Positions 57,394 to 63,222 of a stretch of 64,000 bases of DNA are shown here, piece after piece. Source of the DNA: Armatimonadota bacterium (GTDB lineage: Bacteria > Armatimonadota > Fimbriimonadia > Fimbriimonadales > Fimbriimonadaceae); the NCBI GenBank assembly GCA_027451905.1, contig DAIDHV010000006.1, forward strand, positions 1 through 64,000, in the 5' to 3' direction. The notes below the pieces were generated by a model that worked only from the letters and a program-made list of their open reading frames with translations, made no database searches and was not told where the DNA came from. The number at the start of each line of letters is the position of its first letter. Position 1 is the first letter of the stretch. The position numbers and the translations under genes are program-made.

Positions 57394-57864
57394 ATGGCAA
57401 ACGAAATCATTTTAACGCCGCAAGGTTTAGCAAAACTCCGCGAAGAATTAGAAGAACTGAAGGGGCCGGAGCGCATGAGAATTGCGGAAGCGATTCGAGA
57501 AGCCAAAGCTCATGGAGACCTTAAGGAGAATGCGGCGTATCATGAAGCTAAATTGAACCAATCTCGATTGGAAAGCAGGATTGCAAACCTGCAGGCTTCT
57601 CTGGAGCGAGCAAAGGTTGTGGAAAGGGCAGATTCCGTCGCTGGTATCGGGCTAGGGGCCACTGTCACGTTGGAAGACCTTGACTATGGAGACGAACTGA
57701 CGATTGAACTTGTTGGTGCGTTTGAATCAGAGCCAGGGACAAATAAAATCTCCGTGGGTTCGCCAATGGGAGAAGCCGTGGTCGGTAAAGAAATAGGGGA
57801 CACCATAGAAGTCAAAGCTCCTGGTGGTGTGAGTAAGTTTAAAATCATCTCGGTTGTTTTATGA
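57394..57864 (+). CDS. greA: transcription elongation factor GreA
   Basis: A 156-residue GreA that stimulates RNA polymerase to cut back-tracked transcripts. The N-terminal coiled coil shows L-A-K-L-R-E-E-L-E-E-L, and the A-R/E-A-K-A-H-G-D-L-K-E-N-A-A-Y-H loop with the acidic D and E needed for cleavage is intact. The C-terminal FKBP-like domain follows. TATAAA (57374-57379) precedes it by 14 nt. It overlaps the lipoprotein gene by 4 nt. Confidence 0.96.
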   Translation: MANEIILTPQGLAKLREELEELKGPERMRIAEAIREAKAHGDLKENAAYHEAKLNQSRLESRIANLQASLERAKVVERADSVAGIGLGATVTLEDLDYGDELTIELVGAFESEPGTNKISVGSPMGEAVVGKEIGDTIEVKAPGGVSKFKIISVVL

Positions 57865-58802
57865 AGCAAACGAGGTTTGGATGGATTGTTTTAGGGCTGT
57901 TGGGGTTAGCAATTGCCGGCTGTAGCCTAGGTAAGCCCGAAAGCAGCTTCTCGAAACCATCAACTTCAAATTCCACCAATATCCCTTCTTTTTCGGTTGA
58001 AGCCGGGCAGTCTTCTTTGGCAATTGTTCACGGTACCGATAAGGTTTCGATCGGCGATCCTTATTTTCGGTGGGAAGAAATGTTTCCACGCCCTAACAAG
58101 TCGGCATTTGCAATTCGAGAGCTGCCGAAACCTCTTAGTGGAGACGGCCTTTTGCCAATTGGCTGGGAAACCCCCAACAAGGGTTTTGGTGCCATCCGAG
58201 ATGGCAACAAATTAGTTCTAGCCATGATTTGGGAATCCAAGGTAAGCCATTCTGAGGCAGCTAAAATCAGTGCAGAGTACGATCGTTACAATCAGCAACT
58301 GTCTAGCCAAGTTGTAGCTGCCAATGGTTCCCACTACACATTTTGGGAAAACAACAGCATTCGGATGATGCTGTACGTTCAGAAGAAGGGCGAAGACGCC
58401 TACAATGTAACCTTGACCTTGGGCCAAATTGACCTTATGAATGCAATCAGGGCAAGCGCTCAGCAGGCTCAAAATGACCTTGCCAGCCTTTATCCCAATT
58501 CCACTCGACCAGGTATTAAAGTGAAACCGCCATCGGTGAGGGTCTCCGGATCACCGGCGCCACCATCTGCCCCTTTAGAGCCAAATTCAAACCCTAAAAC
58601 GCAGTCTTCCGGTACGGCGGTCTCAAAACCTGCTTCAAAGCTTGGTTCAAGTTCTTCAACCACAGTTCTCAATCCCAATTCAAATTCCAAGCCAAATCAG
58701 GAAAGCCAAACCCAGGCGCCGGTTGGATCAGGACAGCTAACGACTCAGGGCCAATCTGGAGCCGTGGGCGGGGGTACAAATCCTCCCAAGACTGGCCCGT
58801 AA
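57861..58802 (+). CDS. lipoprotein with disordered tail
   Basis: A 313-residue lipoprotein. The signal M-K-Q-T-R-F followed by a hydrophobic stretch ends in the lipobox A-I-A-G-C (Cys21). The middle (about 45-210) is a folded domain without a recognised family. The last 100 residues are Pro/Ser/Asn/Thr-rich and likely disordered. It is translationally coupled to greA (ATGA). A hairpin TTGGTT/AACCAA with a short T run (58826-58859) follows. Confidence 0.7.
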   Translation: MKQTRFGWIVLGLLGLAIAGCSLGKPESSFSKPSTSNSTNIPSFSVEAGQSSLAIVHGTDKVSIGDPYFRWEEMFPRPNKSAFAIRELPKPLSGDGLLPIGWETPNKGFGAIRDGNKLVLAMIWESKVSHSEAAKISAEYDRYNQQLSSQVVAANGSHYTFWENNSIRMMLYVQKKGEDAYNVTLTLGQIDLMNAIRASAQQAQNDLASLYPNSTRPGIKVKPPSVRVSGSPAPPSAPLEPNSNPKTQSSGTAVSKPASKLGSSSSTTVLNPNSNSKPNQESQTQAPVGSGQLTTQGQSGAVGGGTNPPKTGP

Positions 58803-58825: not shown

Positions 58826-58859
58826 TGGTTAAAGTTGGAATCTTTTTCAACCAATTTTG
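58826..58859 (+). terminator. weak intrinsic terminator of the lipoprotein gene
   Basis: TTGGTT (58826-58831) pairs with AACCAA (58850-58855) and a TTTT run follows. Confidence 0.55.
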
Positions 58860-58902
58860 CGTCCTAAAAAATATCCTTGATAACAGGAGGTGGTGCAATA
58901 GG

Positions 58903-58944
58903 ATGAATTCAGAAACCCAACGCCAGAGAGGTGTCAGGTTTTAA
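58903..58944 (+). CDS. 13-codon leader ORF candidate
   Basis: ATG to TAA, encoding a 13-residue peptide with three Arg and two Gln. AGGAGGTGG (58885-58893) lies 9 nt upstream, the best ribosome-binding sequence in this part of the window. The ORF covers the 5' arm of S1 and of the next hairpin, so translating it would unfold them. The peptide may have no function other than regulation. Confidence 0.35.
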   Translation: MNSETQRQRGVRF

Positions 58945-59014
58945 CAAACTGACTTTGCGCTTTGTATGGTTTGTGATGAACCGAACTCTGGCGAGTGGAC
59001 AAGCGCAACAGGTA

Positions 59015-59046
59015 AGGAGGCTGCTTTAGTGCAGCCTCCTTTTTTT
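59015..59046 (+). terminator. strong intrinsic terminator just before kdsB
   Basis: A 10-bp stem AGGAGGCTGC/GCAGCCTCCT, 6-base loop, seven T. It ends three bases before the kdsB ATG. Confidence 0.9.
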
Positions 59047-59049
59047 ACA

Positions 59050-59772
59050 ATGGACAACATCGCAATAGTCATTCCCGCGCGGATGGCGTCTACCCGATTT
59101 CCCGGCAAGCCCTTAGCGCCGCTAGGAGGCAAGCCGATGCTTCAGTGGGTCTACGAAGCATGCTTGCGAAGCGAGGTCACCGGTTCCATCTTGATTGCAA
59201 CTCCGGATCAGGAAATTGCAGACGCTTGCGCCTCATTCCATGCCGAGTGCTTCTTTACGTCACCAGATCATCCTTCGGGAACGGATCGAATCGCTGAGGT
59301 TAGCCGATCTCGCAGGGAAGAACTTTACCTGAACGTTCAAGGGGACGAGCCATTCATCCCTATTGAAACCATTCAAGCTTGTTTTAGGGCCCTTGTCAAC
59401 CAAAAAGAGCAATTAGCGGCGTCTGTGTTTACTGACTGCAGCTTGGCAGAAGAGCTAGATCCATCGGTGGTGAAAGTGGTCATCAGTCAAGACATGAACG
59501 CTCTCTACTTTAGTAGGGCTGCGATTCCTTATAAACGAGTTCCAACTACCGAGCCTCTCAAGCGGCACCTTGGCATTTATGGGTACTCAAAAGAGGTGCT
59601 GGGCCATTATGTTTCCTGGCAGCAGGGTACGTTGGAAAAAATTGAAGGGCTAGAGCAGCTTCGATTTTTAGAAAATGGAGTCCAAATTCGAATGGAGAAA
59701 GGCATCGCGGGGCCTACTGCGGTTGATACGCCAGAACAGTTAGAAGAGCTAAGAAGGCTCATTGGCGGATAG
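59050..59772 (+). CDS. kdsB: CMP-KDO synthetase
   Basis: A 240-residue cytidylyltransferase that activates KDO for lipopolysaccharide core synthesis. The N-terminal nucleotide-binding motif is I-P-A-R-M-A-S-T-R-F-P-G-K-P-L, followed by V-Q-G-D-E-P-F-I and the Y-F-S-R-A-A-I-P-Y segment. The length fits KdsB. The ATG at 59050 is the natural N-terminus; there is no free Shine-Dalgarno, since the nearest AGGAGG is locked in the terminator stem. It is followed by rel/spoT after 78 nt. Its presence indicates an outer membrane. Confidence 0.95.
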   Translation: MDNIAIVIPARMASTRFPGKPLAPLGGKPMLQWVYEACLRSEVTGSILIATPDQEIADACASFHAECFFTSPDHPSGTDRIAEVSRSRREELYLNVQGDEPFIPIETIQACFRALVNQKEQLAASVFTDCSLAEELDPSVVKVVISQDMNALYFSRAAIPYKRVPTTEPLKRHLGIYGYSKEVLGHYVSWQQGTLEKIEGLEQLRFLENGVQIRMEKGIAGPTAVDTPEQLEELRRLIGG

Positions 59773-62079: not shown

Positions 62080-62531
62080 GAGCTATTATTCAGGTTGTCA
62101 GGTCGGCAAAAGTCACCATAAACGGCGCACTTTGCGGGGAGTGCGGCACCGGATTTCTCATCTATTTAGCGATACATAAAGATGACGACGAGCTTGCCTG
62201 CCAGATGATGGTTGATCGCATTTCTAAGCTAAGAATTCTGCCAGACCACGCAGGGAAGCTTAATTGGTCTCTCAATGAGGTTGAGCCCTCAGAAAAGGCA
62301 AAGATTTTGCTTATTTCTAACTTTACAGTCTATGGAAATCCGTGGAATGGCAGGCGCCCCAGCTACCAAGACTCGGCGTCCTTTGAACTTGGACAAAAGC
62401 TGTATTTGTTGGTTGGGAACCAATTGAGAAGTCAAGGTATTACAGTCAGTGAGGGGGAGTTTGGCGCGGACATGGAAATTGAATCGGTTGCCATTGGCCC
62501 TGTCAACTTGATAATTGATACGAAAAGGTGA
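62076..62531 (+). CDS. dtd: D-aminoacyl-tRNA deacylase
   Basis: A 151-residue DTD that removes D-amino acids mischarged onto tRNA. It begins M-R-A-I-I-Q-V-V-R-S-A-K-V and has the active-site S-N-F-T-V-Y-G (family S-Q-F-T-L) and a C-terminal I-G-P-V-N in place of the usual N-D-G-P-V-T, still keeping the Gly-Pro pair. The pairing of rel and dtd is common across bacteria. Starts in the rel stop (ATGA). Confidence 0.93.
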   Translation: MRAIIQVVRSAKVTINGALCGECGTGFLIYLAIHKDDDELACQMMVDRISKLRILPDHAGKLNWSLNEVEPSEKAKILLISNFTVYGNPWNGRRPSYQDSASFELGQKLYLLVGNQLRSQGITVSEGEFGADMEIESVAIGPVNLIIDTKR

Positions 62532-62589
62532 AACTTGAACAGAGGGTAGGCGTCGTATAAGTATTGAATCTGAAGCGGAGACCGCGAAT

Positions 62590-63222
62590 ATGGCAATCAA
62601 TGCAGCAGCGTTAGGTCAAAAGAATCTCGAATCAGTCACCCAGTTGACAGATGAAGACCTCATCTCAAGAGCTCAATCTGGTGATTACAACGCTTTTGAA
62701 ACCCTCTTTATGAGACATCGAACCATGGTCTATCGCTACTCTTACCAATTGGTTGGCAGAAGGGACGACGCGGAAGATTTAGTCCAAGAATCCTTTGTTA
62801 GAGCCTACGTTAACATTGGCAAATACCGAGATCAAGCAAAATTCACCACTTGGCTTCTGAGAATTGTCACAAATTTAGCGGCTGATCAGGCGAGGATGCA
62901 CACACGGCGATCAAGTTTAGAACTGCAGCAATCGAAAAGTGGCCTTGCTTGGATGACGATCGGGAATCAGATTTCTCCGGAGTCTGACGTAGAAAACGCG
63001 GTGAGGAACGAATTATTAAGGCTGGCGCTTAGCCAGTTAAGCCCTAGGCATCGAACCGCAATTATCTTGAGAGACGTGGAAGAAAAAGAGTATGGAGAAA
63101 TTGCTGAGATCATGAAGTGCTCGGTTGGCGGGGCAAAATTGCGTGTTCTTAGGGCAAGACGAGCCTTGCAAACTGTAGTCAGCAAATTCTCGAAGGAAAG
63201 TAAGGAGAGCCTGCATGCTTAA
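62590..63222 (+). CDS. ECF-type RNA polymerase sigma factor
   Basis: A 210-residue sigma-70 family factor with regions 2 and 4 only. Region 2 shows R-Y-S-Y-Q-L-V-G-R-R-D-D-A-E-D-L-V-Q-E and region 4 L-S-P-R-H-R-T-A-I-I-L-R-D-V-E-E-K with the helix-turn-helix. A purine-rich GCGGAGACC precedes the ATG. Its stop overlaps the next gene by 8 nt, marking a sigma/anti-sigma pair. Confidence 0.95.
   Translation: MAINAAALGQKNLESVTQLTDEDLISRAQSGDYNAFETLFMRHRTMVYRYSYQLVGRRDDAEDLVQESFVRAYVNIGKYRDQAKFTTWLLRIVTNLAADQARMHTRRSSLELQQSKSGLAWMTIGNQISPESDVENAVRNELLRLALSQLSPRHRTAIILRDVEEKEYGEIAEIMKCSVGGAKLRVLRARRALQTVVSKFSKESKESLHA

Follow-up and report, generated by a model that had tools for sequence, protein, structure and literature searches.

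The stretch upstream of kdsB in the window (the whole 64,000-nucleotide stretch of DNA analysed here) is best read as a stand-alone small RNA gene and not as a kdsB switch. Its sequence and that of its homologues point to an element of ~150–200 nt that would double as a mini-mRNA, comprising a putative promoter of its own, an extended Shine-Dalgarno (SD) sequence, a 10–15-codon ORF lying in a conserved hairpin, and a predicted terminator (Table 1); to the reading in which the RNA is the acting product we give about an even chance. The anatomy of the element is well supported by this comparison, and from it we infer a mechanism.

Table 1. Features of the element and its surroundings in the window
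Feature	Position	Strand	Description
Putative ECF-sigma promoter	58837–58863	+	GGAATC (58837–58842), 17 nt, CGTC (58860–58863); predicted start
Extended SD	58885–58895	+	AGGAGGTGGTG; complementary to the 16S 3' end (ATCACCTCCTT) over ~10 nt with one G-U
sORF	58903–58944	+	13 codons plus TAA, MNSETQRQRGVRF-stop; conservation of frame and stop
P1	58921–58928 with 58986–58993	+	CGCCAGAG (within the sORF) with CTCTGGCG; covariation
P2	58937–58941 with 58978–58982	+	GGTTT with GAACC; 98.7 % of cells paired
Internal loop by P2	58942–58944 opposite 58975–58977	+	stop UAA opposite GAU
P3	58944–58949 with 58969–58974	+	ACAAAC with GTTTGT; alignment A4 columns 75–77/124–126
Crossing pair	58956–58962 with 59001–59007	+	TGCGCTT with AAGCGCA; outside the conserved element
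Intrinsic terminator	59014–59046	+	11-bp stem (59014–59041) plus T7; T-run to 59046

The element appears to represent an RNA family not described before: neither Rfam 15 nor the literature searched contains it. At gathering score, the 4227 families of Rfam 15 returned only tRNAs for the window and 40 homologous loci, while under relaxed thresholds the window region yielded only weak unrelated matches (best E value 0.28); the first-pass annotation had likewise recognised no known class by eye. Identity with two established RNAs was rejected or found unsupported: the genome's tmRNA (RF00023) sits on contig C1 (E value 2.8e-65), and no 6S RNA match (RF00013) was found anywhere in genome G000 at E values up to 10, with a model that also misses several control genomes. 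BLAST of the stretch against phage records gave no match. Our literature search found no paper joining Fimbriimonas with small RNA, and the terms Armatimonadetes and sRNA co-occurred only in genome papers on other bacteria.

BLASTn analysis of the stretch against 60 relatives returned several weak matches, all over the same first 59 bases, which had in common AGGAGGTGGTG, an ATG and a short reading frame with ...QGGxGF-stop at its end. The pattern derived from these matches was present in 28 of the 85 genomes of the window's family (control, 0). The covariance model R1, built from ten pattern-matched loci with the window left out, recovered the window at an E value of 1.5e-10 and detected 54 copies, one per genome, among the 113 genomes of the window's order. 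Models R2 and R3 detected the element in 86 and 101 (about a third) of the 291 genomes of the phylum, respectively, totals that are estimates because the stricter filters of large searches drop weak matches and because the low-scoring families f15, f16, f20 and f21 rest on E values of 1e-4 to 1e-3; E values of the models made here are themselves rough. Throughout the R2 and R3 matches there was one copy per genome, except in a single genome (G133) with two, both of which have a TTG start (L301 and L302). A search of 48 genomes of other phyla gave a single weak match (L320, 24 bits, E value 1e-3), which was discarded as no GGAGG SD was present in the stretch read.

Two marks of a dual-function small RNA were found, namely an independent transcript with promoter and terminator, as indicated by motif statistics, and a translated small ORF, as indicated by frame and stop conservation in sequence comparison. 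The first ATG past the SD lies in frame with a conserved UUU-UAR stop in 49/50 order relatives, and ORF lengths among these relatives are restricted to 36, 39, 42 and 45 nt, with indels only in threes; the chance of such frame conservation is ~1e-22 in a naive model, a figure to be read with the relatedness of the genomes in mind, which leaves far fewer effective events. Outside the order, an ORF of 10–13 residues with the pattern M-D-x-S-Q-R-G-D-x-x-G-stop occurs in all 52 loci read, and TAG, TAA and TGA are all used to end it. Retention of the stop while the stop codon itself changes is strong evidence for translation. A +1/−1 frameshift or readthrough past the stop was rejected, since the length of the downstream sequence varies regardless of frame.

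The consensus fold of the RNA is nested, consisting of P1 (CCAGGGAGG/CCTCCCTGG), P2 (GGGTTT/GAACCC), an internal loop in which UA(G/A) faces NAU, and P3. The last codons of the sORF form the 5' arm of P1 in the window, which is one of the more divergent members and has a P1 of 8 bp offset by two positions relative to its relatives. Both-side changes were observed in 7/9 pairs of P1, and over the whole structure they numbered 54 cells compared to 12.2 in shuffles; sliding the partners by 1–3 columns reduced the paired share from 94.5 % to 39–58 %. As the covariation alignment had been fitted to the model, we also ran a swap test, which is independent of the alignment, pairing each 5' arm with its own or a foreign 3' region. 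Within the order, own regions scored 419 and foreign regions 373 ± 4 (best of 2000 permutations, 388), and a swap test of the same kind outside the order returned 386 vs 321 ± 10 (maximum 354). The P2 core (U-A/U-A/U-G) is nearly invariant within the order, and its flanking pairs covary outside it (GC14/AT5/GT2). P3 is 89 % paired, with both-side changes in two pairs and a variable apex. By the pattern used, the P2/P3 module is missing from 6/52 loci outside the order, and the hairpin is thus not universal.

Some further structural features were noted. In family f19 (L243, L245 and L257–L260), the UUUUAGC/GYCAUGAAC internal-loop module occurs twice, with the second copy inverted within P3, suggesting a portable structural or binding motif. 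Inspection by eye revealed no opposing GA in the internal loop, and a kink-turn was rejected. Two candidate 5' structures were also set aside: a hairpin (P0) ahead of the SD in the window's family, whose longest stem (4.86 vs 4.31 in shuffles) was too weak, and, outside the family, a stem that would pair GACUA, where the transcript starts, with UAGUC of the ORF and that displayed no covariation and scored the same in self and cross comparisons.

The first-pass annotation had drawn a pseudoknotted leader here. The P1 arms that it paired are present in the sequence, P1 covaries and the element is kept in relatives, the two grounds on which it had proposed that its structure be judged. Its hairpin between GTCAG (58933–58937) and CTGAC (58949–58953) is borne out as complementarity, but the conserved nested fold excludes it. 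The crossing pair exists in the window but is not conserved: complementarity between apical loop and linker was 4.94 within genomes vs 4.74 between genomes. H-type pseudoknots in which each helix has 7 or more Watson–Crick pairs arose in 4/300 dinucleotide shuffles, which is unusual and yet possible by chance, and the crossing pair is either a chance occurrence or a local addition. The folding energy of the region is −55.2 kcal/mol, compared to −44.1 ± 3.9 kcal/mol for shuffles (z −2.8). Absent from the first-pass annotation were the sORF and its extended SD, the ECF-type promoter and the element's conservation.

The main rival to an acting RNA is a micropeptide gene, in which the 10–15-residue peptide would be the product and the hairpin and terminator would merely stabilise or end its mRNA. 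The families outside the order favour it: the motif is kept between families with synonymous codons for Ser (AGT/TCT), Leu (CTA/CTC/CTT/TTA/TTG), Arg (CGA/CGG/AGA) and Gly (GGT/GGC/GGG), the retention of R-G-[DG] and the final G, partly via synonymous changes, fits a peptide function, and the SD and sORF are retained where the hairpin module is missing. The window's order disfavours it, as N-terminal residues drift freely there, with codon differences at positions 1, 2 and 3 being equal (138, 147 and 126, respectively), suggesting that it is the frame that is kept and that the peptide is unselected. Moreover, P1 covaries in the order at the expense of residues (Q to L, R, K and H), indicating that structure has been maintained over peptide. 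We regard a micropeptide gene as possible but rather unlikely. The hairpin-module pattern was not found in L311, L312, L313, L314, L315 and L319, which keep the SD and a 10–11-residue ORF (e.g. MQSDSRGDCGG and MDSASRGDCGG); L311 is a variant with ATGAC.

The SD itself is near-maximal. The 16S 3' end in the window's genome is GGGTGGATCACCTCCTT, and AAGGAGGTGGT or AAGGAGGTGAT pairs with it over 10–11 nt. Within the order, GGAGG is invariant and GGTGGTG almost invariant, while the SD in nearly all other families is AAGGAGGTGRTG, where R is A or G, either of which pairs with U. A second GAGG/GGAGG lies ~10–13 nt upstream of the stop in most members. This phylum-wide anti-SD complementarity, tolerant of A/G exchanges, together with the second SD-like motif, which lies within the ORF, could be taken to indicate a decoy that binds ribosomes or 30S subunits and whose active parts would be these two sequences, with the identity of peptide and hairpin being of minor importance; however, frame conservation, P1 covariation and the conserved module would then be left unexplained, and we consider a decoy improbable.

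The promoter type would differ between lineages, being ECF-sigma in the window's family and sigma-70 in most other families, as judged from motifs. The pattern GRAAY-N15-19-CGTH was detected upstream of 19/50 homologues in the window's family (1.2 in shuffles), at clustered positions, and TTGAC-N16-19-NATANT upstream of 29/52 loci outside the order (0.09 in shuffles). The window also encodes an ECF sigma factor (62590–63222, Pfam sigma-70 r2 and r4), preceded by GAAAC-N16-CGTC (62530–62554), which matches in type the motif ahead of the element and is likely an autoregulatory promoter of the sigma gene. In the window's family, the element would belong to an ECF-sigma regulon of the envelope-stress type. 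A terminator-like structure was present within 90 nt past the hairpin in 46/50 order relatives (4 expected). These signals bear on the view that the element is a 3' UTR feature of a greA-lipoprotein operon and not a separate transcript. greA and/or the lipoprotein gene does lie directly upstream in 44/50 order relatives, but the element has its own promoter motif upstream; outside the order, greA is found 240–450 nt downstream in f35 and one f32 genome and is otherwise absent nearby, and a sigma-70 promoter sits directly upstream of the element. A 3' UTR origin is thus very unlikely, marginally more so than a decoy. The lipoprotein-like gene that separates greA from the element in the window (57861–58802) is kept in much of the family and has no Pfam match.

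Downstream genes vary. kdsB follows the element in 15/50 order relatives (family f3 among them), with another gene in the remaining 35, and in 27/49 the next gene is convergent; KdsB grouped with none of the downstream ORFs examined outside the order. These neighbours derive from mechanical ORF calling, with some loci on draft contigs. The variable and often convergent downstream genes and the shifting position of greA indicate that the element is not the leader of one gene. The first-pass annotation's reading as a cis-acting riboswitch or attenuator leader of kdsB is accordingly the least probable of all and extremely unlikely, even with kdsB directly downstream in those 15 relatives and with the strong terminator that it correctly placed three bases before the kdsB ATG (59050), given the changing neighbours, the empty Rfam scans and the unconserved pseudoknot. 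No conserved position upstream of kdsB was found, and cis-regulation of that gene was rejected as the element's general function. The annotation's other suggestion, an independent sRNA, agrees with the element's own promoter and terminator and its conservation without a fixed downstream gene. We also observed no SD between the terminator T-run and the kdsB ATG (59014–59052), such that kdsB must be read by read-through, from a leaderless transcript or from another start; from 58966, a longer in-frame ORF overlaps the element.

In the small RNA that we favour, ribosomes would load at the extended SD and translation of the micro-ORF would open P1, with release at the stop, at the foot of P2; in the comparison, the stop codon lies at or just ahead of the P2 stem. 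As translation would open P1 and end at the foot of P2, RNA structure and translation would exclude each other, and the UUUUAG/CAUGAA module and hairpin may be exposed or hidden according to how efficiently the micro-ORF is translated. The RNA would most likely have a dual function and regulate in trans, the peptide being a by-product or second product. Hfq was found in 20/21 near relatives, making sRNA regulation plausible, a presence that permits such regulation and does not show it. More speculatively, and in our view doubtful, the element could be a phylum-wide ribosome-sensing RNA or, equally, could rank among the shortest genes retained throughout a phylum, its 11-residue peptide having an independent function. 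For ribosome sensing, a terminating ribosome would be held at the stop by the SD-like GGAGG ~10–13 nt upstream, at the spacing of an initiating ribosome, and the state of the P1/P2 hairpin would report translation or termination capacity, which the RNA would relay.

The element is a single-copy feature of many families in a phylum that has received little study, and it joins a micro-ORF to a covarying hairpin, offering a clean case in which RNA structure and translation of a 10–15-codon ORF must have co-evolved. It also exemplifies genes so short that annotation pipelines miss them, and it can be tested directly with the covariance models and alignments.

Several known systems share parts of this arrangement. 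Leader-peptide attenuators such as TnaC and the Erm leaders have stems and a terminator behind a short ORF, a layout that the element resembles, although it lacks a conserved downstream gene. The sigma-E-dependent sRNAs RybB, MicA and MicL are controlled by an ECF sigma factor. The element is reminiscent of them as an sRNA gene under ECF-sigma control, by promoter motif only, but we found no sequence relation, and it differs in having an ORF and, in other families, sigma-70 promoters. In E. coli, the greA leader contains the small RNA GraL (PMC6829880). Like the element, GraL is a small terminated RNA adjoining greA; however, it lies in the greA 5' leader, whereas the element follows greA in the window's order, where it has its own promoter, and in f35 precedes greA by several hundred bases and has its own terminator. 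Similar in organisation are the dual-function sRNAs with a short ORF, among them SgrS/SgrT and Spot 42/SpfP of E. coli. RyhB/RyhP is reported as another dual-function small RNA with a short ORF (PMC5331693). Like these three, the element combines a small ORF and a structured RNA in a short terminated transcript, but its ORF is nearly the smallest possible, lies near the predicted 5' end behind an extended SD and has its stop at the foot of the main hairpin; the arrangement is phylum-wide.
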